Source of the DNA: an uncultured Lachnospiraceae bacterium
Lineage (GTDB): Bacteria > Bacillota > Clostridia > Lachnospirales > Lachnospiraceae
Direction of reading: 5' to 3'
Length of the DNA stretch: 64,000 nt
Assembly: GCA_947246015.1 (NCBI GenBank)
Contig: CAMXQE010000019.1
Location: 1-64,000 of the forward strand
In this document: one piece after another, positions 5,080 through 45,255 of the stretch
Numbering within the stretch: the first letter of the stretch is position 1
Layout of the letters: each line of letters begins with the position of its first letter
The notes under the pieces: generated by a model
The model's input: the letters and a program-made list of their open reading frames with translations, nothing else
Told to the model about the DNA's origin: nothing
Databases searched by the model: none
Translations under genes and position numbers: made by a program

Positions 5080-6884
5080 CCCGGCACACCTCCCTGTAAT
5101 CGGTCTTCCTGTCCATGTTCCGCATCCAGCGCCGCTTTCTGCTCCGAAACGGCCGCTTCTAACTGCTGCTGCTCGAACATGCTCCTGTAAATGCCATCCA
5201 TCCACATCAATTCCTCATGGTTTCCTATTTCCTTCGCTTCCCCATCCTCCAGAACCAGAATCACATCGGCGTTCTGTATCGTGGAAATACGGTGCGCAAT
5301 CAGAATCGTGGTCTTCCCGGCACGGTTAGCCTTTAAGTTGCGCAAAATATGCTCTTCCGTATCCGTATCCACAGCGGAAAGCGCATCATCCAAAATAAGA
5401 ATCGGTGCATCCTTCATCAAAGCCCTTGCTATGGAGCTGCGCTGTTTCTGCCCGCCGGAAAGAGTAACGCCCCGCTCTCCTACAATCGTTTCATAACCGT
5501 CCGGAAAAGCAATGATATTTTCATGGATGCAGGCGGCCTGCGTAGCCCGGACGATAGAATCCATATCCTGAGTGTCGGCGCCGAATGCAATGTTTGACTT
5601 TAAAGTATCGGAAAACAGGAAATTATCCTGCGGAACATATGCAATATTCTCCCGCAGTGTTTTTAGCGGAATCGCATTGATGTCCCTGCCGTCTATCAAA
5701 ATCATCCCCGGCTTTGTATTATATAGATGCAGCAACAGGTTGACCAGGGTGGATTTCCCGTTTCCGGTACGTCCGATGATGGCAAGGGTCGTTCCGGCGG
5801 GAACCGAAAGACTGATATCCTTTAAGGTAGGCTCACTGTGCCCCCTATGGATGAAAGTCAGATGGGAAAGCGTGATATCCCCTCTCATCCGCTCCATATC
5901 CGCCGCATCCTCTCTGTCGGAAATTTCCGGCTCCTCATCAAATATTTCCTGAATACGCCGGATGGAAGCAGCCCCCTGCGAGAACATATTAATCGCATCC
6001 CCACAGGCCAGCATCGGCCAGACCAGCATATTGATATACTGGTTGAACGCTACGAAACGCCCCAGCGTAATATCCCCGACCAACGCCAGATAACCGCCGT
6101 AAATAAGCGTAATCAGAGCAGACAACCCGATTATGACGTCTAAAAGCGGCATGACCACGGACTGGAGACGGATGACGTGCAGATTCTTCTCCATGGTATT
6201 CCTGTTTGCTTTGGCAAAAGCCCTAAGCTCCGCACGTTCGCGGACAAAAGCCTTAATGACCCTTACGCCAGAAAAGCTTTCCTGTACGAAATCCGTAAAA
6301 TCCGAAACAGCCTCCTGACGTTTCTTAAACCGTTTATGTATGATTCTGCCGTAATAAATTTCCCCCACACAGATGAAAACCATCGGTATGATAGCCAAAA
6401 GGGTAAGCTTCATATCGACATAGTACATCATCTGGCAAATGACCATGACTGTCATGACGGAAGCGTCAAAAACACAGATGACAGCCGGACCAATAGCCAT
6501 GCGTACCGCATTCAGGTCGCTGGTAAACCGTGTCATCAAATCTCCCGTCTTGTGCTCATTATAGTATTCCACGCTCATTTTCTCCAAATGGCGAAACATA
6601 TCATTGCGCAGCTCACGCTCAATCGAACGGGATGCGCCGAAGAGAAAATAGCGCCACAAGAAACGGCCCACAGCCAGCGTCAGACCCAGCACGAAAATAG
6701 ATACGAGGCAGGAAACCACCCCATCCCAATCCAGTGTGTGCGCCGCCAGCCCGTCCGTTACTGTTCCCGTCAGTTCCGGAATAAAAAGGTTGGCATAATC
6801 TACGACAAAAAGTGTTATGATTCCGGCCGCATATTGAAACCGGTGTTTTTTTATATATTGCAATATGAAATGGAATGTGTTCAT
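5076..6884 (-). CDS. ABC exporter half-transporter, BmrC/YheI-like (degenerate site partner)
   Basis: A 602-residue half-transporter with six transmembrane helices and one ATPase domain: Walker A GRTGNGKST, signature LSGGQKQR, Walker B ILILDDALSAVD. The residue after the Walker B Asp is Asp instead of the catalytic Glu, as known for the non-catalytic site of heterodimeric exporters. It therefore pairs with the next gene, which keeps the Glu. The chosen ATG at 6884 has AGGGAG seven bases upstream; a TTG two codons earlier is possible. A promoter, a 60-codon ORF and a terminator-like hairpin precede it. Confidence 0.9.
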   Translation of the reverse strand: MNTFHFILQYIKKHRFQYAAGIITLFVVDYANLFIPELTGTVTDGLAAHTLDWDGVVSCLVSIFVLGLTLAVGRFLWRYFLFGASRSIERELRNDMFRHLEKMSVEYYNEHKTGDLMTRFTSDLNAVRMAIGPAVICVFDASVMTVMVICQMMYYVDMKLTLLAIIPMVFICVGEIYYGRIIHKRFKKRQEAVSDFTDFVQESFSGVRVIKAFVRERAELRAFAKANRNTMEKNLHVIRLQSVVMPLLDVIIGLSALITLIYGGYLALVGDITLGRFVAFNQYINMLVWPMLACGDAINMFSQGAASIRRIQEIFDEEPEISDREDAADMERMRGDITLSHLTFIHRGHSEPTLKDISLSVPAGTTLAIIGRTGNGKSTLVNLLLHLYNTKPGMILIDGRDINAIPLKTLRENIAYVPQDNFLFSDTLKSNIAFGADTQDMDSIVRATQAACIHENIIAFPDGYETIVGERGVTLSGGQKQRSSIARALMKDAPILILDDALSAVDTDTEEHILRNLKANRAGKTTILIAHRISTIQNADVILVLEDGEAKEIGNHEELMWMDGIYRSMFEQQQLEAAVSEQKAALDAEHGQEDRLQGGVPG

Positions 6885-6904
6885 ATCCAATCTCCCTGCC
6901 CGTT

Positions 6905-6943
6905 AAAAAGATGCAAAGTTGTATTTTTCGTTCACTTTGCATC
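6905..6943 (-). terminator. Terminator-like hairpin between the small ORF and the exporter genes
   Basis: Perfect 10-bp inverted repeat GATGCAAAGT / ACTTTGCATC (6910-6919 and 6934-6943). On the minus strand it is followed directly by TTTTT. It sits 17 bases after the small ORF's stop and 20 bases before the exporter start, so it would stop transcripts before the exporter unless relieved. Attenuator function is inferred. Confidence 0.75.
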
Positions 6944-6960
6944 TCTTACAAAATCTCTGT

Positions 6961-7143
6961 TTATTTTTCGTGATTGCCTATCGGCGGAGTCTGATAAAGT
7001 TTCCTCTCCACCCATTTTTTTTCTTTTTCAATTGCCGCTATCACATCTTTGCATCCGCTTGCTATGGCAATTTCTTCAATTCTTTCCAATGAAGCTAACT
7101 GGTCTAACAAATATCCATTATACTCCTTTTCATTATTCGGCAT
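6961..7143 (-). CDS. 60-residue protein, possible leader ORF of the exporter operon
   Basis: A short helical, charged protein (MPNNEKEYNGYLLDQLASL start, KKWVERKLYQ near the end) that I do not recognise. AGGTGATGAAAT precedes the ATG and a good promoter lies 44 bases upstream, so translation is likely. It is placed promoter - ORF - terminator hairpin - bmrCD-like genes. In Bacillus subtilis bmrCD is controlled by a short leader ORF, bmrB, through ribosome-dependent attenuation. Similarity here is in arrangement only; no stall motif is visible. It could also be an ordinary small protein. Confidence 0.6.
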   Translation of the reverse strand: MPNNEKEYNGYLLDQLASLERIEEIAIASGCKDVIAAIEKEKKWVERKLYQTPPIGNHEK

Positions 7144-7186
7144 ATTTCATCACCTGCTTTCCATGTGCCTTTTCTATGATGCTTTT

Positions 7187-7215
7187 ATTATAACAGAGAA
7201 AAAAAAACATGTAAA
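7187..7215 (-). promoter_or_regulatory. Sigma-A-type promoter for the small ORF and exporter operon
   Basis: On the minus strand, TTTACA (7210-7215), a 17-base spacer and TATAAT (7187-7192). The start point is expected near 7180, about 37 bases before the small ORF. Confidence 0.75.
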
Positions 7216-7244
7216 GATTGCATTTTCTTATAGGAACAGCAGCC

Positions 7245-7285
7245 ATAACAGTTCAGCTTTCGGCTTCCCTGTTACGGAATCTGCC
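7245..7285. repeat. Interspersed repeat, family C (partial copy)
   Basis: A copy of the GTAACAGTTCAGCC - TTCGGCT - CCCTGTTACGGAATCTGCC unit, with TAACAG and CTGTTA ends able to pair around an AGCTTTCGGCT core. It abuts the gatB stop codon. The full-length form is at 46956-47155 and an inverted core copy at 50646-50676. Confidence 0.75.
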
Positions 7286-7287
7286 GG

Positions 7288-8718
7288 TTACAAAAGCTCC
7301 TTTAACAGCCGGTTCACCATCCCCGGCTCCGCTTTTCCTTTCATCGCTTTCATAGTCTGTCCCACCAGAAAACCTATAGCTTTCTCTTTTCCGTTATGGT
7401 AATCCTCTACCGACTTGGGATTTGCTGCAATCACATCTTCTACTGCCTTGCGCAGCGCTCCCTCGTCACTTACCGTTTTTAGCCCCTTCTCCTCCACATA
7501 TTTCTCCGGGTCGGTGTCATTCTCGAACATCACCTCGAAAACTTCTTTTGCAACGGTACTGTTAATCACCTTTTCATCAGTCAATCGAATCAGTCCGGCA
7601 AGATGTTCCGGCGAAAAACGGATATCCTCCGGCTCCATCTCCTTTTCTTTTAACAGACGCAGCGTCTCCACCATCAGCCAGTTGGATACCTTCTTGGGCT
7701 GTCCGCACAGTTTCACGGTTTCCTCGAATAAATCCGCCATGCGTTTCGTGCCGGTAATGATTTCAATGTCGTAATCGGGAATGTCATATTCTTCTTTGTA
7801 ACGTGCCATTTTCTCCGTGCGGAATTCCGGCTGCGCCGCTTTAATTTCCGCCAGCCATTCATCGCTTACCACCACAGGAACCAAATCAGGGTCGGGAAAA
7901 TAACGGTAATCCTGAGCATCCTCCTTGCTTCTCATGGCATAGGATTCCCCTTTGCCGTCATCCCAGCGCCTTGTCTCCTGCACGACCTTCTGTCCTGACT
8001 CTATCAAATCAATCTGACGCTCCCGCTCTCCCTCAATGGCATTGGCAATGGCACGGAAGGAATTCAGGTTCTTCATTTCCGTCCTCGTTCCAAACTCCGC
8101 GGTTCCTGCTTCCCTGACGGAAAGGTTGACATCTGCCCTCATGGAACCTTCCTGCAGTTTGCAATCGGAAGCTCCCAGATACTGTATCATCATCCGCAGT
8201 TTTTCCAGATAGGCAATCACTTCCTCCGCACTGCGCATATCCGGTTCGGATACAATTTCAATTAACGGCACGCCGGAACGGTTATAATCCACCAGCGAAC
8301 AATCCTCCCATTCGTCATGAATCAGCTTGCCCGCGTCTTCTTCCATATGGATTTCATGGATACCCACCTGCTTCTTTCCCGTCTCCGTCTCGATTTCCAC
8401 GCTGCCGTTTCTGCATATAGGCAGATATAACTGGGAAATCTGGTAATTCTGCGGGTTGTCCGGATAAAAATAATTTTTCCGGTCAAATTTACAAAACTGC
8501 GTAATTGTACAGTTTGTGGCAAGTCCTACCGCCACCGCGTATTCCAGCACTTTTTTATTCAAAACGGGCAGAGAACCCGGCATCCCCGTGCAGACCGGAC
8601 AGGTATGGGTATTGGGTGCTCCGCCGAATGCAGTGGAACAGCCGCAGAAAATTTTCGTTTTTGTCGCCAGCTCTACATGAACTTCCAAGCCAATGACCGT
8701 TTCATATTGTTTTGCCAT
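7288..8718 (-). CDS. gatB: Aspartyl/glutamyl-tRNA(Asn/Gln) amidotransferase subunit B
   Basis: A 476-residue tRNA-binding and kinase subunit of GatCAB. This complex converts Asp-tRNA(Asn) and Glu-tRNA(Gln) to the amidated forms. It has the opening ETVIGLEVHVELATK, the Cys cluster around FCGCSTAF and CPVC, KFDRKNYFYPDNPQNYQISQ and HMEEDAGKL, and a C-terminal YqeY-like tail (KAIGFLVGQTMKAMKG). The start at 8718 gives the standard length; an ATG at 8730 is also possible, since AAAGGAG lies close to both. The start overlaps the end of gatA. Last gene of aspS-gatCAB. Confidence 0.97.
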   Translation of the reverse strand: MAKQYETVIGLEVHVELATKTKIFCGCSTAFGGAPNTHTCPVCTGMPGSLPVLNKKVLEYAVAVGLATNCTITQFCKFDRKNYFYPDNPQNYQISQLYLPICRNGSVEIETETGKKQVGIHEIHMEEDAGKLIHDEWEDCSLVDYNRSGVPLIEIVSEPDMRSAEEVIAYLEKLRMMIQYLGASDCKLQEGSMRADVNLSVREAGTAEFGTRTEMKNLNSFRAIANAIEGERERQIDLIESGQKVVQETRRWDDGKGESYAMRSKEDAQDYRYFPDPDLVPVVVSDEWLAEIKAAQPEFRTEKMARYKEEYDIPDYDIEIITGTKRMADLFEETVKLCGQPKKVSNWLMVETLRLLKEKEMEPEDIRFSPEHLAGLIRLTDEKVINSTVAKEVFEVMFENDTDPEKYVEEKGLKTVSDEGALRKAVEDVIAANPKSVEDYHNGKEKAIGFLVGQTMKAMKGKAEPGMVNRLLKELL

Positions 8719-22549: not shown

Positions 22550-25500
22550 TCACACAAATACTGCCAGCTTAAAAGGAATCTCTTTGTCAATCCATACCGC
22601 TTCTTTCCTTTCTCCTGCCAGAATCAGCAATTCCTCTCCCTTATGACGTGATGCGAATATACCGCCCGGCCGCAGGCTGAACTGTCCGGTAGCCGACTGT
22701 TCCACTATCATATCCGGCAGTTTCACTTCAAATCCGTTTTCCGTCTTCTTCATCATACAGCTTCCGGCATAGTGGGAGGCACCTTCCCCATCCTGATGAT
22801 ATACTCTTATGCTCCTGAACATCATATACAGAAGATATAAAAGAACTGCGGCAAATGCCACGCTACCTACGGTAAAAGTCACCGCTTTTACGACCGGAGC
22901 CGCCACATCATTCTTTTTCATGGTTTCGGTCTGCAGGACGGTGACAGACTCTGCGTTTACCTCCTGCTGTTTTACGGATATCTCCTCCTTTTTCTTTGGC
23001 AGATTGATTTTGTCTTCTGTTTTCCTTTTTTCTGTTTCCTTTTTTTCCGGTTCCTTTTTTTCCGTTTCCTTCTTCTCTTCTTTCACGTCCTTCATCTTTC
23101 CTGCCACTGCAGGTCTGGCTTCCCCTGACTGCTTTTTCTCTCCGGCGGCTTCCTCATTGCCTCCCGTCGTCTTTTTCTGCGGCTTCTCCTCTTCTTTCCG
23201 ATTATTATGATTCGTGTTCTCTGCTTCTCCTCCGGCATCGGAACTATCATCCTCATCTCCGCCCTGCGAATCAGAATTATCTTCCCCGTTTTCTCCGCTT
23301 CCCTGTCCGGAATCGTCCCCGCTGTCTTTTTCACCCTCTGAACCGGAATCACTTTCCCCGTCTTTTTCATTTTCCAAATCGGAGTCATTTCCTTCTCCGC
23401 CCCCGTCCTCCGGTTCTGGTTTATCCCCGCCGTTCTCGTTTCCCGGACCGGGTTTTTCTCCGCCTTCTTCGTTTTCCGGTTCGGGTTTTTCTTCGTCCTT
23501 TTTGTTTTCCGAACCAGGTTCCTTTCCTTCTCCATTCTCATTTTCCAGACCGGACTTATCTCCGCCGTCCGTTCCTTCCTCCCGGATATTGCTGATTTCT
23601 ATGTTTTTTTCGGAAATATTACCGCAGAGGTCGCGTACCATGATAAGAAGTTTTCCATTTTCTTTGACCTCATATACCGCCTTTTCCGTCCATGTTTTCC
23701 CGCCGTCAAAGGAATAAGCCTTCTGCGCCAGTCCGCTTCCGCTGCTTCCATCCGGCTGTATATCCTCCGCAATCACACGGACTTCATTTCCTGCTGCTCC
23801 TTCCTCCGTATCATAAAGAACCTCCCGTATCACCGGAGCCGTATCATCGATATTCCTCACTTCAATGGATAATGCTGGTTCCGCTTCGCTTATATCGTCA
23901 TTCTTTGTCAGTAACCGTACTGTATAAGTCCCATTTTCCTTCACCGTACAGCTGGAAATATAATCAGAAATATATTCCGGAGCATCCGCTCCGCTCCTTC
24001 TGTCTTCTCCCGTTCCTTCTTCTACTCCTCCTTCCACTCCTTCTGCCATGTCCACGTTTCCGCCAGTCCACGAAAAAGGAATCTCTTCCAAATGTAAAAA
24101 TCCGTCTTTATCCTCACATGCCGCCTGTAGGACAATCGGGGAACTGCTCCATCCGGCGTTTGGATTCGAAAGGGAGAATACTGCATAAGCCCTGTTTTCT
24201 TCCCTGCCGCATCCCAGCTCATGGCCATCTATGGTCTCCTCCGTCTTTTGGCAGGAGCGGGCATAGGCGTCCACCACCGTTTCATCTTTCCCACAGTTCC
24301 TGACATAAGAATCAATTGTTTCCTCCGTTTTCCCACAGTCCCGCCTGTAAGACTCCACTGTCTTCTCCGACTTCCCACAGTTTATCTGATACGATTCCAC
24401 ACTCTTTTCATTCTTGCCGCAGTCGCGCTGATATGAATCAATGGACGATGTATTTTTCCCACAGTTGATCTCATATCCCATTATGGATGTCTCATTCTGA
24501 TTACATCCGGTTTTCCACGAATCCACTGTATCTGTCCTCTTTCCGCAGGACAATTCATATCCTTCTACCGTCTTCTCGTCTTTGCCGCATGTAATCTTTT
24601 GGTACTTATGGTCGATATCCATTTTATTGCACGCCCAGCAGATGGTCTTGCTGTCGGTCACTTTCCCAAGCCCGCAATCCTGATGCTTATAGGTTCCTTC
24701 AAATGTCATATGAAGCGTCATACCATGGTGATAGCATTCCGCGTCGTACTCCGCTATCCTTTGGAAACCGCCCTCGTAGGTGGCGATACACTTTTCCGTT
24801 GTATAGCAGTTATCGGTATGCGTATGGTATACGGCCCTGTAACAGTCTCCGCCTGAGGAACTGTCTCCCGCATGGGAATGATAAACCGGCAATTTATAAC
24901 ATCCTCCGCCTGAGGATGCGCTTCCGGTATGGCTGTGATATACGGCTTTCCCATAACAGCCGCCTCCCTTTGCCGCACTTCCGCTATGCGTGTGACTGAC
25001 CGCCGTCCCGTAACAGCCGCCTCCCTTTGCCGCACTTCCGCTATGCGCATGATATACCGCTGTCCCGTAACAGCCGCCTCCTTTTGTCCCGCTTCCCGTG
25101 TGGCTGTGATACACCGCCTGTCTGTAACAGACACCGCCCTCCGCCTCACTTCCTTCATGGACATGATACTTCTTTTCTCCATAACAACCCGCACCGTCCG
25201 ATTCATTCCCCGTATGTTCATGATAAACCGGCTCGCTGTAACAGGCGCCTCCCTCACTTGGATTCCCCTCATGTACATGCAGGATATCCCTCGTATAGCA
25301 GCCGCTTCCCTCTTCCCCTGTTCCGGTGTGCACATGATAAAGTTCCTTCTCTATCCGGTTTCCTTCCGCTGTCTGCACCTCTTTCTGCATAAAGGTTTCC
25401 CTTTCCCCCGGCAGGCTCCCTGCCATCGTTCCTTCCTGCGCCTGAATCTGCGCGGGTACGGCAAGCGCCGCCGCCAGAAACAGTATACCTGCTCTCTGCC

Positions 25501-25555
25501 GGAATCTTTTTCCGCCTGTCTGAACCATCCGCTTCCTGTTTTTTCCGTTTTCCAT
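22550..25555 (-). CDS. Secreted, membrane-anchored HxH/Cys repeat protein
   Basis: 1001 residues. A signal peptide (about 1-40) is followed at about 73-258 by ten units of about 19 residues of the form YHSHTGSxxxGGGCY, each with an HxH pair and one Cys. A second array at about 322-460 has nine or ten 14-residue units CGKxExTVESYxxx, one Cys each. Ig-like segments then occur to about 640, then a Gly/Glu/Lys-rich stalk to about 890, one transmembrane helix (about 905-930) and a short tail of about 70 residues. Metal binding or disulfide cross-linking is inferred. AGGAGG lies 12 bases before the ATG, a long spacing. Confidence 0.85.
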   Translation of the reverse strand: MENGKNRKRMVQTGGKRFRQRAGILFLAAALAVPAQIQAQEGTMAGSLPGERETFMQKEVQTAEGNRIEKELYHVHTGTGEEGSGCYTRDILHVHEGNPSEGGACYSEPVYHEHTGNESDGAGCYGEKKYHVHEGSEAEGGVCYRQAVYHSHTGSGTKGGGCYGTAVYHAHSGSAAKGGGCYGTAVSHTHSGSAAKGGGCYGKAVYHSHTGSASSGGGCYKLPVYHSHAGDSSSGGDCYRAVYHTHTDNCYTTEKCIATYEGGFQRIAEYDAECYHHGMTLHMTFEGTYKHQDCGLGKVTDSKTICWACNKMDIDHKYQKITCGKDEKTVEGYELSCGKRTDTVDSWKTGCNQNETSIMGYEINCGKNTSSIDSYQRDCGKNEKSVESYQINCGKSEKTVESYRRDCGKTEETIDSYVRNCGKDETVVDAYARSCQKTEETIDGHELGCGREENRAYAVFSLSNPNAGWSSSPIVLQAACEDKDGFLHLEEIPFSWTGGNVDMAEGVEGGVEEGTGEDRRSGADAPEYISDYISSCTVKENGTYTVRLLTKNDDISEAEPALSIEVRNIDDTAPVIREVLYDTEEGAAGNEVRVIAEDIQPDGSSGSGLAQKAYSFDGGKTWTEKAVYEVKENGKLLIMVRDLCGNISEKNIEISNIREEGTDGGDKSGLENENGEGKEPGSENKKDEEKPEPENEEGGEKPGPGNENGGDKPEPEDGGGEGNDSDLENEKDGESDSGSEGEKDSGDDSGQGSGENGEDNSDSQGGDEDDSSDAGGEAENTNHNNRKEEEKPQKKTTGGNEEAAGEKKQSGEARPAVAGKMKDVKEEKKETEKKEPEKKETEKRKTEDKINLPKKKEEISVKQQEVNAESVTVLQTETMKKNDVAAPVVKAVTFTVGSVAFAAVLLYLLYMMFRSIRVYHQDGEGASHYAGSCMMKKTENGFEVKLPDMIVEQSATGQFSLRPGGIFASRHKGEELLILAGERKEAVWIDKEIPFKLAVFV

Positions 25556-25852: not shown

Positions 25853-27925
25853 TCAAACCATAAACAAACTCCTCAGATAATAATACAGTTCCGGATTCGA
25901 GCTGCGTACATTCACGCTCAAATCGCCGTTTCCCATTACTACACCCAGACCATACAACGCCTGAAGCACACAGACAGCCGCCAAAAGCATCATCAGTTCG
26001 CTCCTCCGCTCCGTACCATTGCTTACTTCCCAAAGTGCAAACAGCACAAGTACCGAAGCCGCCAATACACCCCATACCATATCCACCATATACCGCTGCA
26101 GAATCCCCGCCCCGGTCACATCCACCACTCCCAAAACAACCGGAACCGCCAGGTTTACCAGTGTAAATGCATAAATCCCCTTATGCTTCAGCACCCGTTT
26201 TTCACGCCTTAAAAGTACGAGCAGCCATGCAAAAGCATTGCAGACCAGTATTCCCCCATAGGTATACTCCGCATTCAGTCTGCCCATGTAAGTTCCCGAT
26301 TCAATCTGCACCCCCTGCAAAAACGGGAATTCACTGCTTACGACCGGAGGTCTTAAGAAATAATGCCACAAGCCCAACAGCGCCTGATGCAGATGAAATC
26401 CCCGTTTCGTCATATCATTGCTGGTCAGGCTGTACGCCGCCCCGAAATCAAAAGGCGAGCCGAACCGGGCCGCATTATAATACATGATTCCCGCCGCTGC
26501 CAGCACATAAGGCAGGCAGATACAAAGAGTATCCAACGGATTCTTTTTTCCGAACAGCTCTCTCTTTTTTATTACTTCTTCCCAAAACAACGGTACCGCG
26601 AGAAACGAAAATAACAGCATCTGTGGACGGCAGCCAGCCACCAGCGCCATACAGAGGGAGCCAAGCAGATAAACCACCCGTTTCCGCTTTGTATGCGTCA
26701 TATATTTTCCCTTTATCCACAGCCATAACCCTGCCGCCGTAAACATATTGGCAGCCATAATCGGCGTATCATACAAATCCGGTCTGGCAATCACGAACAA
26801 ATAATTACCGCTGCACACCGTCAGTATACAAGCCATGAGATACAGGAAAAACGGAGTATTCACAAACCATCTCCTCACAATTTCCCGGTAAAGCGCAAAC
26901 ACCGCCAGTATGAATCCGCAGTAGAATGCAAACACCGCCAGATAATTCGGCAGATGATGCCCTGTCAGCAGATACAGGGGCAGATAGAGCAGAAGTTCCG
27001 GCACCACGCCGAAATATACATAGTATTTCCCTTCAAAATAAGCATAATCCGCCTGATAAGGAATCCCGTTCGCCTGCAGGTAAATCGTATCATACGGATT
27101 TTCCACCTGAAGCAGTTCTTCCGACGGCCGGGCCGCCAGATAAAAGTGCCCGTCCGCCATAGCCTCCGCCAGTTCCTGATACTGCTTATGGTGGGGCCAG
27201 GGTGCCTCGATGCAGACCGGATTCACATGGGCCAGTTTCCATGACATTCCCATTAACAGCAGGATTGCAGCTGCCGTAACCGCCTTCTGCCGCTTCGAAC
27301 CAATCCACTTTCCCGCCTCGATGCTGCCTCTGCCCACGCCCCGCGCAAAATAAAGGAAACACAGCGCTGCCCATGCCAGAACCAGCCTCCCGAAACTGAA
27401 TACAAACGGGACTTTCCCATTGGCCATAATATAGTCCACTGCCACCAGACACCCTGCCGGAACCGCAATCTGTATACTGATTTCCGACACTCTGCCTGCC
27501 GGATGCACATTGACATAATGCGTTCTGACAAGCCCTGGCGCCCATATCTGTTCCGGAAGAGAATAAGCGTAATAATTCCCCTCATCTGACAGACTCACCG
27601 TATATGCTGCCATTGCTTCCGGATCGGAAAACTCCAACCCCAGCGCCAGATTATGTATGTCCCGGCCCACGTCATTTATATGTAAAGTCAATACTCCCTC
27701 CGGTACTTCATAAACCGGCCCTTCACCGAAATCCTCTGTCGCTTCGGCGCCGCCTTCTATACCGATTTCCTCAAACCATACTTCGTTCCCGTAAAACCGG
27801 CTCCTCCATGCGGAAAAATTAAACGGGAAAATCTCCAGCGCCAACGCGGCCGCCAACAGCCAGAGCCATATCTCCCACGGTTTCCTGTCTCTGTTTTTCA
27901 TTTTTTCCCGCAGTTTTCTTAACAT
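25853..27925 (-). CDS. Large polytopic membrane protein, GT-C-like
   Basis: 690 residues. Helix 1 (about 19-38) is followed by an extracellular beta-rich domain to about 165, then about 11 to 12 helices. Motifs such as AYFEGKYYVYFGVVPELLLYLPLY and GCRPQMLLF occur in uncharacterised Firmicutes envelope proteins resembling lipid-linked-sugar glycosyltransferases. It lies 36 bases downstream of the acyltransferase-3 gene, in one operon with it. Specific function unknown. Confidence 0.75.
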   Translation of the reverse strand: MLRKLREKMKNRDRKPWEIWLWLLAAALALEIFPFNFSAWRSRFYGNEVWFEEIGIEGGAEATEDFGEGPVYEVPEGVLTLHINDVGRDIHNLALGLEFSDPEAMAAYTVSLSDEGNYYAYSLPEQIWAPGLVRTHYVNVHPAGRVSEISIQIAVPAGCLVAVDYIMANGKVPFVFSFGRLVLAWAALCFLYFARGVGRGSIEAGKWIGSKRQKAVTAAAILLLMGMSWKLAHVNPVCIEAPWPHHKQYQELAEAMADGHFYLAARPSEELLQVENPYDTIYLQANGIPYQADYAYFEGKYYVYFGVVPELLLYLPLYLLTGHHLPNYLAVFAFYCGFILAVFALYREIVRRWFVNTPFFLYLMACILTVCSGNYLFVIARPDLYDTPIMAANMFTAAGLWLWIKGKYMTHTKRKRVVYLLGSLCMALVAGCRPQMLLFSFLAVPLFWEEVIKKRELFGKKNPLDTLCICLPYVLAAAGIMYYNAARFGSPFDFGAAYSLTSNDMTKRGFHLHQALLGLWHYFLRPPVVSSEFPFLQGVQIESGTYMGRLNAEYTYGGILVCNAFAWLLVLLRREKRVLKHKGIYAFTLVNLAVPVVLGVVDVTGAGILQRYMVDMVWGVLAASVLVLFALWEVSNGTERRSELMMLLAAVCVLQALYGLGVVMGNGDLSVNVRSSNPELYYYLRSLFMV

Positions 27926-35054: not shown

Positions 35055-36506
35055 CTAGTTTTTCAACGCATCCGCCAGTTCTTTTATATTCCCCAGTATC
35101 CGGACGCATTCCTCCATCCTTCCTACCGCATCGGAAGCCGTCTTCACGCTCTCCTCCGAAGAAGCCGCCACCTCTTCGCTGGTTGCCGACAAATGAGCAA
35201 TACTGTTGGAAATCACCCCTGTCGCCTGAAGGATATCCGCAATCGTCTTATCCGTATGCCGGATACTGTTTGTCAGTTCCGTTACTTCCCTGTCAATGCT
35301 CTCGAACTTCTCTTTTGCCACTTCTATCATTTCCGTCTGACGGTTAATATATTCTACCGAATTATCCAGACTGTCGGAAGCGCTTTTCGCATCTCCAATC
35401 AGTTCTGCAATGATTCCCGTTATCCGGTTCGTAGCTTCCTTGGTCTGCTCCGAAAGCTGCCTGATTTCATCCGCAACTACTGCAAACCCTCTTCCCGCGT
35501 CACCCGCTCTCGCAGCTTCTATGGAAGCATTCAGCGCCAGCAGATTGGTCTGCGAAGAAATACTCAGAATATCGCCTATGATATTTTCCACCTCATCCAC
35601 TCTGGACGTCAGTCTTGCCGTTGCCTCAACGGTCTGCCTGCTCGCTGACTCTACACCTTCCGCCTGTTCCTTCAGATTCCGCACCAGAGAAGCGCCTTCC
35701 GCTACATTCCGTGAAGTGTTCTTTGCCGCTTCCTCCACTCTGGAAGTATCCTTCTCCACCTCATCGGAACTTTCCTGTATCGAAGCGCACATCTGCGCCT
35801 GGTCCTGTATTGCCTGCGCCGTACTTTCCGTACTGTCCGCAATATTGCTCATGGCAAAATTGTTAGCCTCCACACTCTCACGCAGCTTTTCCAGCATTTC
35901 ATTCGCACTCTCGAAATTCCGGCTGATTTCATCGGCTGTCTCCACCATTTTTCTGGAAGCCGCCGCCTGTTCGTCTGCCGCTCTCCGGATACTCGAAATG
36001 CTCTCCTCATTAAACTGCTGTACCGTCATCATTACCACATACGCCGCCACGCATATCAGAATACACATGACCCACCGAATCATGGCATATCCAACATTCA
36101 TGGTTCCCGCAGAGGCATCCCGCACCGTCTTGATGATATTCGCAATCAGGATAACCGAAGACCCGGCCAGCGCAAACCGCTTATTCAGATACAGGATAGA
36201 TGCCATCAGAATAGGAAAAGCATACACATATGTAAGTTCCTCGGAACCAAGGCTCATTAAAACCAGATATGCCAATGCACCCGCTCCGGTCAATATGCTG
36301 CCGCACGGCCTGGTCCCCTTACAGAACGCAAATCCCACTATGCAGATAATAAACAGTACGATATACACCACCATCTGAATATAAGTTCCAACCTCCGCCG
36401 TATGCAGTACAATTGCATACACCATCGACAGAATCATATACAGCACTGTTATCCCCACTAACACCAATACTCTTTTGTCGCTTCTTAAATACTGCTCCCT
36501 GGTCAT
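35055..36506 (-). CDS. Methyl-accepting chemotaxis protein with polytopic membrane sensor
   Basis: 483 residues. Six closely spaced transmembrane helices fill about residues 12-165, with no large extracellular domain, so it probably senses within the membrane. The signalling coiled coil follows, with the conserved hairpin tip [24 protein letters not shown] 36506 is preceded by GGGAGGCGGGATTT. No che genes are nearby; it is a stand-alone receptor. Confidence 0.93.
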
Positions 36507-36612
36507 AAATCCCGCCTCCCATTTATACATATTTACTTAATAAATATACCATATTTTGTCTCAAAGTCCAATACCCATTCGCACGGTCATAACGCAATAT
36601 GGTATTACTGTC

Positions 36613-38288: not shown

Positions 38289-38530
38289 GAAACGCTGGCC
38301 CGGCTTTCAATGTCATTCCGTTTCGTGTCACGGCGCCCGAATGGAATCATAAGTTCCCAATTCGGACCGTCGGAAAACGCCGGTTCTTAGACGCTGTTTT
38401 TTAGCGTCTTAGTACCGCTGCGTTTGATGCCGAGCGAAAGCGGGTCTGAATGGGAATTATGATTCCATTCGGGCGCCGTGACACGAAACGGAATAAATTT
38501 TCAAACACGTTCCAGGCCCGTCAGCGTTTC
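38289..38530. repeat. 242-bp imperfect palindrome (cruciform or MITE-like)
   Basis: Perfect 37-bp arms at 38316-38352 and 38457-38493. Outer arms GAAACGCTG / CAGCGTTTC lie at 38289-38297 and 38522-38530, and an inner near-perfect stem CTTAGACGCT / AGCGTCTTAG surrounds a T-loop. Imperfect pairing continues between these. The right end overlaps the last codons of the kinase-DegV gene. A TTTCAAACACG motif of another repeat family lies in the right half. No reading frame is supported. Confidence 0.85.
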
Positions 38531-41199
38531 TTTTTCATGTACAACAGCCCGAACGAACCGATTCCGCAATTACTGGAAATAGTCGCAGATGCCTTCTGCA
38601 TTTCTATATGGTCGAAAAATACATACTTTTTGATTTCCTTCTTGATTTCCTCCAGCTGCTCCATGGAACAGCCCGCATAAGTAAGGAACAGAAGCCTCGT
38701 ATCGATATTCTTCTTATCCCTCAGCGTATGCCGGATATACCGCTTATTCGCCGCCTGCACACTCCCTGTCTCCACGCCTTTTAACTTGATTTTACTTTGA
38801 GAAAGATGCAGCACCGGATGCAGGCTTAAGCTTTCACAGATATCCCGTACTTTCTTCGATACCTTTCCGCAGCGGTATAGGTTTTCCGGCGACGGCACGA
38901 TGAAACTGGTGCTGATTCGCTCCTTCAGCTGTTCCAGCATTTCACAGATTTCCTCCGCGCTTTTCCCCTCCTGCGCCATCTGCGCCGCATAAAGCACCAT
39001 AATTCCCATTCCGCTGGACAGATGCCCCGAATCCACCACCGATACATTGTCAAACCCTTTCGCTGCCGCAGACGCCGCACGGTATCCGTTTCCTCCTTTG
39101 GAAGCCATGGAAATATGAACAACTTTCTCCGACTTCTCCAGTTCATCCGCGAAGAAGAGCTCATATTCCTCCGGCGGAGGCGCTGCCGAATGCGCCCCAT
39201 TCCCCGGCTGCTGCATGTATTTTAAGAGATTATCCGAAGAAATCTCCGACAAATCGCAGAACCTTCCCTGATTGGTATATACATAATAATACATAGTTCT
39301 GATTTCAAACTGCTCCAGCCACTTCGCAGGCAAATCGCAGACACAGTCAGCCGTAACGCTTACCTTCTTCTTTTTAGCGCTTAAGAAGGTCCGTATATTG
39401 CTATCCTCGTTTTCCTCTTCCTCCTCATAAACACTGTATTCTATCAATTCCGCCGGCAGGTATTTTAACAGCGTTGCTTCGAACAGGACGCCGTTGATTG
39501 GCTTGGCCAGGTAACCGGCAAACCCTTTTTCCTGATACAGTTCTTCCGCCCCTGTCATCACATTCGCTGTCAGCGCAATGACCGGCACATCCTGACAGTG
39601 CCCCTTTTCCTGCTTCTTCAGCTCCCGCATCGTCTCTTCGCCGTCCATCCCCGGCATCATATGATCCATGAAAATCACATGATAGAACTTACTGTTGGTC
39701 TTCTCCAGGCACTCCACCCCGCTTTTTGCAGTATCAACCTGTACCCTGGTAGCACGCAGCAGTTTACAGGCTACCATCAGATTCATTTCATTGTCGTCGA
39801 CAATCAACACTTTCGCCTCAGGCGCTTCAAAACTCTGTTTGTACTTCTCCCTCTCATACAGTTTCCGGCGCACCATGAAATCCATCGTACCTACCGGTCT
39901 CGGATTCACCACCTGCTGTTCCACCGTAACCGTGAATGTGGAACCCTTTGTATAAATACTGTCTACGGTTATCTCTCCGCCCATCATCTCAATCAGCTGT
40001 TTGGAAATGGACAGCCCCAGGCCCGTACCCTCGATTTTGCGGTTTCTTTCCTGGTCCACCCTGCGGAATGAAGAAAATAAATCCTCCAAACTCTCCTTTT
40101 TTATCCCGATACCCGTATCCGCTACCGTAATCTTAAGCAGTATCCGGTTCGCGTCAATCCGCTCACTCTGCGCGGTCAGCGTGACGGAGCCCTGCTCGGT
40201 ATATTTGACCGCATTGGTCAATATGTTGGTCAGAACCTGTTTCAGCCTTACCTCATCCCCATACAGCATAGACGGCAGATGTCTGGAAATATCGACTTTG
40301 AACTCCAGATTCTTTTCATGCATCCGAATCCAGATAATATTCACCAAATCGCTGAACATTGCCCCGGTTTCATATTGTGTCGGCACAATTTCCATCTTCC
40401 CCGACTCGATTTTGGACATATCCAGAATGTCGTTAATCAAAGCCAGCAGCATTTTGCTGGCATTCTGTATATTAATGGCATTCTCCGCAATTTCATCGGA
40501 TATATCCTCCCGCAGCGTCATCTCATTCAGACCGATGATGGTATTGATGGGCGTACGAATTTCATGACTCATATTTGCAAAAAAAGCACTTTTGGATTCG
40601 CTGAAACGCTCTATTTCCGCTTTCTGTTCCTCGCCCTGTTTCCGCTCCTGTTCATACATATATACATAAAATTTAAAGATTATACCAATGGCAATACCCA
40701 CCATCAGCACCGCCAGCAGGGAATCCATATGGATAGATGCCGGACTGTCCATGGGAATCACCCATTCCGGATGCTTCCATGACAGATAATAGGTTGCCTG
40801 AAGTGACACCACGGTCAGAATCAGGGCAAAATACATTGCTTTTCCTGAAAAGAGCAGGAAAACATACACCAGTCCCAGTACGAACCATATAGGCGCACCG
40901 CTTTCCATTCCTCCGCTGACAAAATACATGGCCGGAAACAGACAGCCGTTAATCAAAATTCCCATCAGACAGACAGCCAATCCGACTTTCCTGTATTTGT
41001 ACACCAGCCAAAGCGCCAAAACCGTTACCAGAGTCATAAGTACCAAAGGAAGCAATACAATCACAGATGAACCGATGCATATACCCGCTATTACTGCCGT
41101 TCCTGATACCGCTGCGCTCAGCGTCAGGATAATGCGGAACAGCCTCTCCCTGAAATCAATTTTTCCGCCATACAGCTTATCAAACCATTTCTTAATCAT
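38521..41199 (-). CDS. Hybrid sensor histidine kinase - receiver - DegV fusion
   Basis: 892 residues. Transmembrane helices lie at about 20-185. HisKA follows with FFANMSHEIRTPINTI, then HATPase (NAVKYTEQG, VADTGIGI, GTGLGLSISK). A receiver (about 460-585) has ILIVDDNEMN and VIFMDHMMPGMDG. The last 270 residues are a DegV-type lipid-binding domain: VSVTADCVCDLP, SAAPPPEEYELFF, HISMASKGGNGYRAAS, NVSVVDSGHLSSGMG, RCGKVSKK. DegV proteins (FakB type) bind fatty acids, so the fusion may couple phosphorelay to lipid sensing. AGAGGTAGACGCT precedes the ATG. Last gene of the signalling operon. Confidence 0.9.
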   Translation of the reverse strand: MIKKWFDKLYGGKIDFRERLFRIILTLSAAVSGTAVIAGICIGSSVIVLLPLVLMTLVTVLALWLVYKYRKVGLAVCLMGILINGCLFPAMYFVSGGMESGAPIWFVLGLVYVFLLFSGKAMYFALILTVVSLQATYYLSWKHPEWVIPMDSPASIHMDSLLAVLMVGIAIGIIFKFYVYMYEQERKQGEEQKAEIERFSESKSAFFANMSHEIRTPINTIIGLNEMTLREDISDEIAENAINIQNASKMLLALINDILDMSKIESGKMEIVPTQYETGAMFSDLVNIIWIRMHEKNLEFKVDISRHLPSMLYGDEVRLKQVLTNILTNAVKYTEQGSVTLTAQSERIDANRILLKITVADTGIGIKKESLEDLFSSFRRVDQERNRKIEGTGLGLSISKQLIEMMGGEITVDSIYTKGSTFTVTVEQQVVNPRPVGTMDFMVRRKLYEREKYKQSFEAPEAKVLIVDDNEMNLMVACKLLRATRVQVDTAKSGVECLEKTNSKFYHVIFMDHMMPGMDGEETMRELKKQEKGHCQDVPVIALTANVMTGAEELYQEKGFAGYLAKPINGVLFEATLLKYLPAELIEYSVYEEEEENEDSNIRTFLSAKKKKVSVTADCVCDLPAKWLEQFEIRTMYYYVYTNQGRFCDLSEISSDNLLKYMQQPGNGAHSAAPPPEEYELFFADELEKSEKVVHISMASKGGNGYRAASAAAKGFDNVSVVDSGHLSSGMGIMVLYAAQMAQEGKSAEEICEMLEQLKERISTSFIVPSPENLYRCGKVSKKVRDICESLSLHPVLHLSQSKIKLKGVETGSVQAANKRYIRHTLRDKKNIDTRLLFLTYAGCSMEQLEEIKKEIKKYVFFDHIEMQKASATISSNCGIGSFGLLYMKKKR

Positions 41200-41229: not shown

Positions 41230-44133
41230 TTACCGGTCCTTCCATGCTGCCAGTTCCTCCTGCGCTCCCATAAAATCAAATGTCTCTGCTTTCTCACGCA
41301 CGGACGCCAACCGTTCCGACAGCGGCTGCCCTTCGTAACAGTAAAGTTCCAATTCCTTCAAAACGGCCAGCACGCCCTCGCTTTCAAAGGTTTCCAGCTG
41401 TTCCTCCAGTTTTGCCAATGCCTCTTCCAGTTTTTCCAAAGACAGCTCCGGTCTTTCGTCCGCTGCAGCCGCTCCGGACGATGAGCGTCCATCCCCCTTA
41501 TCTTCTTCCGCCGCTTTGGACAACGCACGTCCGTTTTCTCCGCTTCCGTCCTGATTTCCCGCCATCCCCGCACTTTCCGGTCTGTTTCCTGTCCCATCAG
41601 GGAAAATCACCTCGTTTTCTCCGATGGCATGAAGCACTCTTTCATACTCCTCCAAAGTCTCCTCCGTATGGCTCAGGATATATTCCTCATTCTTTGCCTT
41701 ACCCGCTGCCTCCAGCTCCTTTGCCATATCGGACAGTCCTGCCGCACCGATTCCCATGGACATGCTCTTTAAGGAATGGACACCGATTGTATAATTCTTC
41801 CAATCCTTCTTTTCATAATTCCTGCGTATTTCCTCTTTCTTTGCCCGTCCGCTGGTATAATAAATCCGCACGATGTCAATATAGTCCTGCAATACTCCGC
41901 CGCAATAGGAAATCCCCATATTCGTATCGATTCCCTCCATATCCAGTCCGTCTAAACGTTTCCTCTTCTTTCTTGCGGCATCGGCAGGGAACTCCTCCCT
42001 GCCTGCGGTTCCTGCCTCCTGTCCCGCAGTCTCCGCCGTATATCCGTCCTTTTCCCTTTCTTCCTGCGCTTCCTCTATTTTAATAATCTTATTTTCGGGG
42101 ATATGGCGCCGCAGCACCCTTTCCAAAACGGAAAGTTCAATCGGCTTCGCCACGAAATCCGCAAATCCTTCCGCAATGAACATTTCCCGCGCTCCGCCTA
42201 TGGCGTTTGCCGTCAGCGCGATGACCGGCACTTTCTGAAAATACCGGCCCGGTTTCTGACGGATTCGGTGCAGTGTCTCCACACCGTCCATTTCCGGCAT
42301 CATATGATCCATGAATACAAAATCAAAATCCATGGATTCTATTTTATCCAAAGCTTCTTTCCCGCTGCCTGCTGCAAATACCTTTATCTTATAGGGACGC
42401 AGCAGCCCCTCTACCACGCGCAGATTCATGATATTGTCATCTACCACCAGCACGCTGGCCTGCGGTGCAATAAACCGTCCGTCCATACGGCGTCCGCTGT
42501 CCATACTCTGTACTACGTGTTCGCCGTTCAGTACTGCAGCGATGGACAAAGCCGAAAACGGCTTATAAATATAGAACATTCCGCTGCCCGCATTTTCCCC
42601 GCCTTCTCTTTCTTTTACCAGAACCACCTTCAATTCTCCGGTCAGCCGTTCAAAATACTCCCTGTCCTCGCAGTACTCTTCCCAGCTGATGAATACGTGG
42701 CTGAATTTTTCCTTATCCACATACCGCTTCAGTTCCTGAAGATTTTTACACTGTCTGCAGGAAATCTTCAATTGTTCCGCAATATGGCGGATTGTGTCGG
42801 CGTAACCGTCCCGCACTGCGGCAAAATCATATTTCTCCATATTAATATAATAAGCCGCACGTATCTTCTCCGGATTACGGAGAGAAATAATCGGCGCACG
42901 GTCCGCCACTTTCTGAGGCAGGACAACCTGCACCTCGCTTCCTCGTTCCGGTGCACTCCTTACCGTAATGAAACCGCCCATCTTGCTGACCAGCGCCTCG
43001 GTAATTGCCAGTCCCAGCCCTATGCCGCCCTCCTGCCGGTTCCTCTTCGTATCCACCTGATTAAAACTGGAAAAAAGCTTCTCCACATTCTTTGCTTCCA
43101 TGCCGATTCCCGTATCCTTTACCGTAACCGACAGATTCACGCCATACTCCTCTTTTCTCGTTCCGACCGTCAGGATGACGGCACCCTCATTCGTAAACTT
43201 GATGGCATTGTCCACGATATTCATGACCGCGCGCCGTATCTTCTGCTCATCCCCGACCAGACCGCAGGGTATATCCGCCTCACAGTCCACAATCAGCTCC
43301 AGCCTCTTTCCCCCCATCCTCGCCAAAGCCATATTCATAATATCATTGATGGTCGAAGTGATATTATAAGGCTCCTCCACCAGCGTCAGCTTACCTGACT
43401 GAAGTTCGGAAAAGTCCAGAATATCGCTGACGACGGACAGCAGATTACGGCCTGCGGTCTGTATGCCGAATACATCCTCCCTCACATTGGCCGGAAGTTC
43501 TTCCCTCAGTATCATCTCGCTCATACCGCAGACGGTATTGATAGGCGTACGGATTTCGTGGGAAACATTGGCCATGAAATCATCTTTGCTGCGCTCCGTC
43601 TTCCGCAGGTCCGAAATCACCCGCAGCAGTTTTTGATTGCTTTCCACCTGTTCCCTTACCAGATAGTATGAAACATATTCTGCCACGTATACAGACAGAA
43701 TCTGCAGCACCAGCCTGCCGCCCTCGCCGTCCGACGTAATGTGGATGCTTTGCAGGAACAGGCCATGATAAAACAGCAGGAACGTAGACGCCCCCGCTGC
43801 TATGTAAACGATTTTCGGCAGGCAGTAAATACTCAGCAATATAATCATGCATATCATTGTGGAAAGAATACTGAAATAACTTTTAGAGTTCATTCCGTAC
43901 AGAATCAGATTCATCCACGCCATACAAGCCGTAAACATTGCACGGAACTGATAATCCCGGTATTTTCTCACATGAATGAAAATACTGGCCAGCATACCTG
44001 CCAGAATCAGCCGCATCACCCAGCTTCCCCATCCCAGCACATATGACATGACCGCCATCCCGACTGTATAAACGATATAAACCGTCAGGACCACCCGCTC
44101 CACTTTTCGTTCATTTTCCTGATTAAAATCCAC
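41230..44133 (-). CDS. Hybrid sensor histidine kinase with receiver and Hpt domains
   Basis: 967 residues. Six or so transmembrane helices (to about 165), HisKA (FMANVSHEIRTPINTV), HATPase (NAIKFTNEG, VKDTGIGM, GGIGLGLAITE), a degenerate receiver-like stretch (about 430-550), a receiver (LVVDDNIMNLRV, FVFMDHMMPEMDG) and an Hpt domain with HSLKSMSMGIGA. An acidic/helical tail of about 130 residues ends it. It can run a complete His-Asp-His relay toward a separate response regulator. It starts at GTG 44133, preceded by AAGGA and overlapping the HD-GYP gene by 11 bases. Confidence 0.93.
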   Translation of the reverse strand: MDFNQENERKVERVVLTVYIVYTVGMAVMSYVLGWGSWVMRLILAGMLASIFIHVRKYRDYQFRAMFTACMAWMNLILYGMNSKSYFSILSTMICMIILLSIYCLPKIVYIAAGASTFLLFYHGLFLQSIHITSDGEGGRLVLQILSVYVAEYVSYYLVREQVESNQKLLRVISDLRKTERSKDDFMANVSHEIRTPINTVCGMSEMILREELPANVREDVFGIQTAGRNLLSVVSDILDFSELQSGKLTLVEEPYNITSTINDIMNMALARMGGKRLELIVDCEADIPCGLVGDEQKIRRAVMNIVDNAIKFTNEGAVILTVGTRKEEYGVNLSVTVKDTGIGMEAKNVEKLFSSFNQVDTKRNRQEGGIGLGLAITEALVSKMGGFITVRSAPERGSEVQVVLPQKVADRAPIISLRNPEKIRAAYYINMEKYDFAAVRDGYADTIRHIAEQLKISCRQCKNLQELKRYVDKEKFSHVFISWEEYCEDREYFERLTGELKVVLVKEREGGENAGSGMFYIYKPFSALSIAAVLNGEHVVQSMDSGRRMDGRFIAPQASVLVVDDNIMNLRVVEGLLRPYKIKVFAAGSGKEALDKIESMDFDFVFMDHMMPEMDGVETLHRIRQKPGRYFQKVPVIALTANAIGGAREMFIAEGFADFVAKPIELSVLERVLRRHIPENKIIKIEEAQEEREKDGYTAETAGQEAGTAGREEFPADAARKKRKRLDGLDMEGIDTNMGISYCGGVLQDYIDIVRIYYTSGRAKKEEIRRNYEKKDWKNYTIGVHSLKSMSMGIGAAGLSDMAKELEAAGKAKNEEYILSHTEETLEEYERVLHAIGENEVIFPDGTGNRPESAGMAGNQDGSGENGRALSKAAEEDKGDGRSSSGAAAADERPELSLEKLEEALAKLEEQLETFESEGVLAVLKELELYCYEGQPLSERLASVREKAETFDFMGAQEELAAWKDR

Positions 44134-45205
44134 CCAGAAGTTCCTTCAATACCGGTTCCATATCATTGAAAACATCCACAATGGCCGGATCGAACTGCGT
44201 TCCTTTTCCCTCTTCCAGAATATCCAGTACCTTCCGCATCGGGCGTACCGGCTTTTTATAACAACGTTCCTCATACAGCGCATCGAACACATCCGCAACC
44301 GCCATAATCCTTGCACAGAGCGGAATATCCTCTCCCCCCAGCCCTTTCGGATAGCCGCCGCCATCCCAGCGTTCATGGTGATACATGGCAATATCGACAG
44401 CCACCTTTACATAAGCTTCGTCCTCCACATCACTGATAATATCCCTTATGATATCCTCGCTGTAAACCGTATGCTTCTTCATCGTTTCATACTCTTCCTG
44501 CGTCAGCCTGCCCGGTTTCTGCAGGATACTGTCCGGTATCTTAATCTTGCCGATATCATGCAGGGGCGCGGCCTTACAGACATTCTGCATATATTCCTCA
44601 TCCAGAACTTCCATAAACTGCCCTCTCCGGCGCAGTTCCTCCGCAATCATCCTCACATAGCCCTGCGTATTCTTTACATGCTTTCCGGTACTGCCGTCCC
44701 TGCTCTCTATCAGATTCGCCAATCCGACGATTACTTTTTCCTGTATCTCCCCGATGCGCTTGGAACGCTCCATCAGCTGTTCCGCCTGCTCTTTCACCAG
44801 AGTCTCCAGACTATTATGATACTGCTCCAGCTCCAGCGCACGTTTTACCCTGCTCTTTAAAATATCGGGAACAAAAGGCTTGCCCACGAAGTCAAAAGCC
44901 CCTACCTGAAAACATTTCGTCTCCGTCTCGGTGCTCTTATCGGCGGTCAGGAAAATGACCGGTATGGAATCCAGCCCTTCCATGCCCCTCAGCCGCTCCA
45001 TCGTTTCAAAACCATCCATTTCCGGCATATTAATATCCAACAGAATCACATCCGGACGGTTCTTTTCCAGATATCTTAAAGCTGCCGGTCCGGAATTAGC
45101 CGCAGCAATCCGATATTCCCCGCCCAGAATCTTCTGTGCCAGCAACAGGTTCGCACTATCATCGTCTACGACTAAAATAATTCCTTTCATCCGCTTTTCC
45201 TCCAT
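44123..45205 (-). CDS. Response regulator with HD-GYP c-di-GMP phosphodiesterase domain
   Basis: 360 residues. The N-terminal receiver has ILVVDDDSANL, the phospho-acceptor in VILLDINMPEMDG and the Lys in VGKPF. The HD-GYP output domain has HDIGK, KHTVYSEDII, HHERWDGGGYP and VADVFDAL, all residues expected for an active enzyme that degrades cyclic di-GMP. It is the first gene of the operon and the likely output of the two kinases. An ATG five codons in (45190) has an ideal GGAGG site and may be the real start. Confidence 0.95.
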   Translation of the reverse strand: MEEKRMKGIILVVDDDSANLLLAQKILGGEYRIAAANSGPAALRYLEKNRPDVILLDINMPEMDGFETMERLRGMEGLDSIPVIFLTADKSTETETKCFQVGAFDFVGKPFVPDILKSRVKRALELEQYHNSLETLVKEQAEQLMERSKRIGEIQEKVIVGLANLIESRDGSTGKHVKNTQGYVRMIAEELRRRGQFMEVLDEEYMQNVCKAAPLHDIGKIKIPDSILQKPGRLTQEEYETMKKHTVYSEDIIRDIISDVEDEAYVKVAVDIAMYHHERWDGGGYPKGLGGEDIPLCARIMAVADVFDALYEERCYKKPVRPMRKVLDILEEGKGTQFDPAIVDVFNDMEPVLKELLGGF

Positions 45206-45255
45206 TTGTTATCCTTCCTCCGTTTATTATAACACTTGTCCGTGGGGGAAGTCCA

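Follow-up and report, generated by a model that had tools for sequence, protein, structure and literature searches.

We describe a hybrid histidine kinase that carries a DegV domain, the fold of the fatty-acid-binding FakB proteins, behind its receiver. Its gene, here called HK2, lies in a 64,000-nucleotide stretch of DNA (the window) from an uncultured Lachnospiraceae bacterium (GenBank assembly GCA_947246015.1, contig CAMXQE010000019.1, positions 1 to 64,000), next to the genes of a second hybrid kinase (HK1) and of a regulator with a receiver (REC) and an HD-GYP domain. We propose, with a probability of roughly 0.6, that the three genes encode a phosphorelay controlling cyclic di-GMP (c-di-GMP), in which the DegV domain is a recruited FakB-like regulatory part that most likely binds an acyl lipid. 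The DegV family is known for fatty-acid carriers, and Lachnospiraceae are common gut bacteria living amid host and dietary fatty acids. HK2 and its domains are located as follows.

38521 to 41199, minus strand: HK2-REC-DegV, i.e., membrane sensor, HisKA, HATPase_c, receiver and DegV (single open frame of 892 amino acids, Pfam, full-length model)
40615 to 41199, minus strand: N-terminal membrane region (hydropathy, full-length model)
40399 to 40593, minus strand: HisKA with His212 (Pfam; His in 79 of 79 aligned rows)
39916 to 40260, minus strand: HATPase_c (Pfam)
39493 to 39810, minus strand: receiver with phospho-acceptor Asp512 (Pfam; Asp in 79 of 79 aligned rows)
38533 to 39366, minus strand: DegV domain, residues 612-889 (Pfam, residue mapping, domain model, PDB matches)

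The frame starts with ATG and runs through 892 residues without an internal stop, and its translation and Pfam matches bear out a first-pass annotation of this DNA, which had read 892 codons with membrane sensor, HisKA, HATPase, receiver and DegV; the three motifs quoted there are also present. The Pfam matches are HisKA (residues 203-267, E 3.5e-17), HATPase_c (314-428, E 4.2e-28), Response_reg (464-569, E 8e-20) and DegV (612-889, E 1.5e-42), all four above the curated gathering scores. The DegV domain is complete, as had been claimed: the match covers positions 1-279 of the 280 in the model and scores 146.3 bits against a cut-off of 27 for PF02645 (TIGR00762, 146.1 bits against 99.7), and the isolated domain is predicted to adopt the whole two-domain DegV fold (predicted local distance difference test score, pLDDT, 93.2), with clear matches to lipid-binding DegV structures in PDB and a fold shared with lipid-bound members. 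The membrane region has five hydropathy peaks and is modelled as several long helices, the last of which (residues 153-229) continues into the kinase.

The source genome contains six DegV matches. Two lie in frames of more than 900 amino acids: HK2 of the window and its paralogue on contig C57, which is likewise preceded by a hybrid kinase with an Hpt (histidine phosphotransfer) domain and by a REC-HD-GYP gene. A genome-collection scan with an alignment of ten fused domains found at least 555 relatives, of which 80 were kept; the same scan with a single DegV domain as query found no relatives. DegV and kinase share one frame in 77 of the 80 (L091, L132 and L137 are broken or split), and the 50 that were aligned share 49-86% identity with the window domain and are therefore not copies of one assembly. 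That two genes were joined by an error of assembly or sequencing, the frameshift that the first-pass annotation had envisaged, has practically no chance of being right: the frame is indeed broken in L091, L132, L137, L185 and L196 (L091 and L185 look like one genome), but the second copy in the same genome and the single-frame relatives in independent assemblies led us to reject it, and the fusion is genuine.

As to distribution, 70 of the 80 records are titled Lachnospiraceae or Roseburia, Blautia, Lachnoclostridium or Acetatifactor, four genera that we take to belong to Lachnospiraceae, and the titles of the other ten are unspecific or different. L149 among the relatives is a strain titled Bacterium 1xD42-87. 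Two loci carrying the module (L101 and L108) come from records titled Gastranaerophilales and Alistipes, which are possibly mislabelled assemblies. In 397 genomes of the window's family, with at most six candidates scored per genome, there were at least 94 matches in frames of 700 amino acids or more, from at least 68 genomes; at genus level such a match occurred in 2 of 16 genomes. In a phylum sample (398 genomes, E <= 1e-40) frames of this length were confined to the window's own family; an order sample (392 genomes, E <= 1e-60) brought in one further family with two genomes, G1027 (924 amino acid frame) and G1075 (651 amino acid frame). G1027 has both kinases, with no HD-GYP or GGDEF motif within the fetched stretch. 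A 580 amino acid frame in G503 was rejected as a fusion; its length comes from open sequence ahead of a DegV of the ordinary kind.

The second hybrid kinase and the HD-GYP phosphodiesterase that had been noted next to HK2 were both confirmed by Pfam. All three are read from the minus strand, a detail missing from the first-pass annotation, and the remaining features of the gene set are the following.

44123 to 45205, minus strand: REC-HD-GYP response regulator (Pfam HD_5 4.4e-34, Response_reg 3.1e-28; HDIGK, HHE and DGGGYP motifs present)
41230 to 44133, minus strand: HK1, i.e., membrane sensor, HisKA (His192), HATPase_c, degenerate receiver-like region, receiver (Asp609) and Hpt (His786) (Pfam, own profiles, active-site counts)
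42484 to 42846, minus strand: receiver-like region of HK1, residues about 430-550, between ATPase and receiver (own profile; no Pfam match)
41650 to 41874, minus strand: Hpt of HK1, the sole Hpt found in the HK1/HK2 pair (Pfam, own profile)
45226 to 45255, minus strand: promoter-like site just upstream of the HD-GYP gene (consensus scan, 10 of 12 matches, TG preceding the second hexamer)

HK1 starts at 44133, before the HD-GYP frame has ended at 44123, so that the two overlap; HK1 ends at 41230 and HK2 starts at 41199. The three genes apparently form one operon and would be co-transcribed. The promoter-like site adds weak evidence, because 16 such sites were found across the region and 10.7 were expected. 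The Hpt of HK1 scores 24.8 bits in Pfam, barely over the cut-off of 24.6, and 119 bits with our own profile, whose training set included this sequence. The region of residues 430-550, which we read as a degenerate receiver, is kept across relatives, and at its presumed phospho-site most rows have residues that are hydrophobic or small, with Trp and Glu next.

The recurrence of this arrangement in relatives supports the link of HK2 to a second kinase and an HD-GYP gene. A separate upstream frame with a kinase motif was found in 73 of the 77 fused loci; of the other four, L089 and L114 begin at a contig end, and in L115 and L165 the upstream frame shows the receiver-Hpt part only. HD-GYP motifs were present in the gene directly upstream of HK1 at 71 of 80 loci. 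When genes were clustered as a control, those upstream of HK1 fell into one cluster in 66 of 74 loci against a largest cluster of 9 of 73 for the first downstream genes, so the three genes are kept together amid changing surroundings. Other branches have a gene for a REC-GGDEF protein within the set or next to it (L045, L173, L188, L190 and L193); the output is thus likely to be c-di-GMP, raised or lowered.

The phospho-sites, counted only in rows with frames over 840 amino acids, are intact in both kinases: the HK2 residues are invariant as listed above, and HK1 retains its kinase His in 75 of 75 aligned rows, its receiver Asp in 74 of 75 (the remaining row reads X) and its Hpt His in 75 of 75. 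We then sorted 123 DegV rows, which are not independent of one another, with profiles built from these proteins. The DegV kinase lacks Hpt and the upstream kinase has it in 81 rows; in 19 the DegV kinase has its own Hpt and the upstream kinase has none; four have a free-standing DegV behind a kinase with Hpt, and one has a DegV-Hpt protein behind a kinase without. Four rows without Hpt on either side (L091, L132, L137 and L185) are broken frames in which the front part of HK2 itself passes for the 'upstream kinase'. In L044, one of the 81, the Hpt of the upstream kinase is weak (19 bits) and a strong Hpt is found in a separate downstream gene. The location of the Hpt changes at least three times on the DegV tree (55 rows). 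Since there is one Hpt per intact pair, on either kinase, the two receivers are most naturally read as feeding a single Hpt.

The FakB2 positions T61, S93, R170, R202 and H266 were mapped on 109 DegV domains in frames over 700 amino acids. The numbering is reportedly that of Broussard 2016, where Thr61, Ser93 and His266 are said to form a carboxylate-binding network. In the window protein T61 corresponds to Ser671, S93 to Gly703, R170 to Lys779, R202 to Thr811 and H266 to Asn877, so that the network reads Ser671, Gly703, Asn877. Across the 109 domains the H266 position is Asn in 108 (86 of 87 after thinning to <90% identity), the T61 position is Ser or Thr in 107, and the S93 position is Ser or Thr in 90 and Gly in 16, the window protein among them; at the R170 position Arg is found in 19 and Lys in 68. 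An Arg stands exactly at the R202 column in one domain, within one residue of it in four and within two in 11; the corresponding figures for 33 ordinary short-frame DegVs are 28, 30 and 31. The tolerance of two residues was allowed because the profile alignment shifts this loop (as in FakB2, L002, L025 and L037).

These changes bear on the role that the first-pass annotation had suggested, i.e., binding of fatty acids and their presentation to FakA. According to the available parts of PMC9136124 and PMC10146087, phosphorylation requires Arg173 of FakB1, and binding to FakA and the membrane requires Arg205; their equivalents in the window protein are Lys779 and Thr811. The available parts of PMC10138225 and PMC12594616 hold nothing on these FakB residues. 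The DegV domain could nevertheless be a working FakB that is loaded with fatty acid, or delivers it to FakA, under phosphorelay control: a FakA-type gene (566 amino acid frame) is present in the genome, the domain is a full-length DegV, and Arg170 is kept in a minority of relatives. Against this stand the two replaced arginines in the window, the scarcity of both among the 109 domains, and the position of the FakA gene, which is 2.4 kb from another DegV on contig C8 and not at the window locus. Because the FakB His is lost almost without exception and the docking Arg in most kinase-linked DegVs, a working FakB is improbable and was set aside. Of the earlier interpretation, the true fusion, the complete DegV fold and the recurrent kinase and HD-GYP link thus stand, and the presentation of fatty acids to FakA is not supported.

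The signature is found also outside the fusions. Free-standing DegVs encoded with kinases (L187-L190 and L193) likewise carry the Asn, and neither the R202 column nor its immediate neighbours hold an Arg; those away from kinases (L191, L192, L200, L201 and L207-L211) read T, S, R, R, H. The Asn therefore goes with the kinase link, not with fusion as such. No kinase was seen in the wide flanks of ordinary free-standing DegVs at L047-L055 (nine loci, searched with a strict motif that could miss unusual kinases) or at L191, L192, L200 and L201 (searched with profiles). In a tree of 90 DegV domains, from which the five signature columns had been removed, the kinase-linked DegVs form a separate clade: one branch (support 100/100, with a bootstrap not fully settled) separates all 62 from the rest, a single H/N change is needed when rows with H or N are counted, and a quick tree of 94 rows that includes the long-branched ones gives the same split. 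Four free-standing kinase-linked domains make one group (97/84) beside the other 58 (97/96).

In most relatives the DegV domain is C-terminal, and in the long forms it lies between receiver and Hpt. L197 and L203 carry it at the N-terminus. In L202 and L204 it is attached to an HK1-like kinase, giving a shorter form behind which L204 has two GGDEF genes, and in L193 it is joined to Hpt alone; in L187-L190 it is free-standing directly beside an HK1-type kinase, with no HK2 and no match to the HK1 membrane profile. A domain fused by chance and drifting, with no part in signalling, could explain why the clade is highly divergent with some long branches (L198, L203 and L196 at 1.21). It would hardly account for the linkage of DegV to this kinase type in C-terminal, N-terminal, free-standing and DegV-Hpt forms, nor for one nearly fixed residue signature in one clade, and we regard it as very improbable.

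What the domain binds is a separate matter. Fatty acid is a candidate ligand by virtue of DegV family membership and predicted fold, and with Gly703 and Asn877 in the window the ligand may not be a free fatty acid, an altered ligand or binding mode being favoured. The domain might instead be a regulatory or interaction module of the phosphorelay that uses no fatty acid, binding another small molecule or none and serving as a protein interface, for example one holding HK1 and HK2. The replacement of the network His by Asn and of Ser93 by Gly agrees with such a role, as does the free-standing DegV encoded beside HK1 where HK2 is missing, which fits an interaction partner; the EDD fold occurs also in dihydroxyacetone-kinase and phosphotransferase-system proteins. 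Conversely, the whole two-domain fold is predicted at high confidence, the hydroxyl at T61 is nearly always kept and that at S93 usually, and the nearly invariant Asn at the His266 position points to a site likely still in use. We therefore consider a module without fatty acid unlikely, if a serious contender.

In the phosphorelay that we propose, HK1 and HK2 would each autophosphorylate and pass the phosphate to their own receivers, and both receivers would feed one shared Hpt (on HK1 in the window). The Hpt would phosphorylate the REC-HD-GYP regulator, which would degrade c-di-GMP, the messenger that REC-GGDEF relatives would synthesise. The DegV domain has most likely given up both docking with FakA and any role in forming acyl phosphate; it would keep the two-domain lipid-binding fold and most likely bind a cytoplasmic acyl lipid (a free fatty acid or a relative), and binding would change kinase, phosphatase or REC-to-Hpt transfer activity and hence c-di-GMP. 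For co-transcription, the direction of phosphate flow, the ligand and the effect on c-di-GMP, this is what we infer from sequence and models. More tentatively, at somewhat less than even chances, the domain would represent a new class of intracellular lipid-sensing domain that has lost FakA docking and become the sensor of a two-kinase, one-Hpt relay through which gut Lachnospiraceae would couple c-di-GMP to the state of their cytoplasmic fatty acids, the Gram-positive equivalent of the diffusible signal factor (DSF)/Rpf system with different sensor parts.

Several observations weigh against the proposed phosphorelay. Two of the three carboxylate-binding residues differ in the window protein (Ser93 and His266), and the full-length HK2 model (pLDDT 75.6; predicted template modelling score, pTM, 0.49) offers no usable inter-domain geometry and is uninformative on contact between DegV and kinase. 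FakB2 itself aligns two residues off in the R202 loop. The docking-arginine state changes six times on the tree, and its loss or return is therefore not a single event. Fourteen of the 123 sorted rows showed no upstream kinase (contig ends, ordinary DegVs, the broken L196 and rearranged forms), and L204 has no Hpt anywhere in the fetched stretch. At six of 80 loci another gene lies upstream of HK1 (in L115 only through HK1 being cut at a contig end), and at three there is no room upstream. L041 has a receiver-only protein upstream of HK1, L189 and L218 have no adjacent c-di-GMP gene, and the nearest GGDEF gene in L187 lacks a receiver and is set apart by opposite-strand frames.

Among the closest known systems is RpfC/RpfG, the DSF system of xanthomonads. 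In the available parts of PMC4504480 and PMC5391125, a fatty acid signal acts on an Hpt-bearing hybrid kinase whose partner is an HD-GYP phosphodiesterase, and RpfC binds DSF through a 22-residue N-terminal region. The window set is similar in having a hybrid kinase with receiver and Hpt, a multi-helix membrane input and an HD-GYP partner, the HK-REC-Hpt kinase standing beside the REC-HD-GYP regulator as it does at 71 of 80 loci. It differs in that two kinases share one Hpt and the putative lipid binder is a DegV domain that follows a receiver. We use the resemblance as a working analogy and claim no kinship. Unlike FakB/DegV proteins (PF02645), the present domains are fused to or encoded beside a hybrid kinase, have Asn for the carboxylate His in 108 of 109 cases, have mostly lost the docking Arg and form their own clade. 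DhaQ (PDB entry 2iu4), the DhaK-like co-activator of the dha operon, offers another parallel as an EDD-fold relative of a kinase substrate-binding subunit turned regulator.

In the open-licence PMC literature, surveyed mostly by title and the opening of the abstract, we found no description of a DegV, histidine kinase and HD-GYP or c-di-GMP combination, which architecture databases may well list, and no paper linking a hybrid histidine kinase to c-di-GMP in Lachnospiraceae; PMC12688256 and PMC3146951 are, in their available parts, unrelated to DegV kinases. Histidine kinases, DegV and HD-GYP regulators are each known already; what appears new is a phosphorelay with a candidate DegV sensor, widespread in one major gut family. 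If DegV reports acyl lipids, it would give a direct route from lipid exposure to c-di-GMP and whatever c-di-GMP controls there, and the DegV family would join the list of signal-sensing domains. The residue signature (His replaced by Asn, docking Arg lost in most) would help to separate sensors from carriers elsewhere, and the shared Hpt would make a clean system for how two kinases drive one output.

A different natural DegV fusion was found in another family of the same order (L199, positions 5603-7411, minus strand), where DAK2, the FakA middle domain and DegV share one frame of 603 amino acids; here FakA-like domains are joined to DegV and there is no histidine kinase or receiver. Elsewhere in the window, an Rfam search of positions 30000-52000 gave no match, and two large frames on the minus strand (22550-25555 and 25853-27925, 1001 and 690 amino acids) have no Pfam match at 1e-8. 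Downstream of the gene set, past a MatE transporter, lies a gene for a methyl-accepting chemotaxis protein (35055-36530, minus strand).
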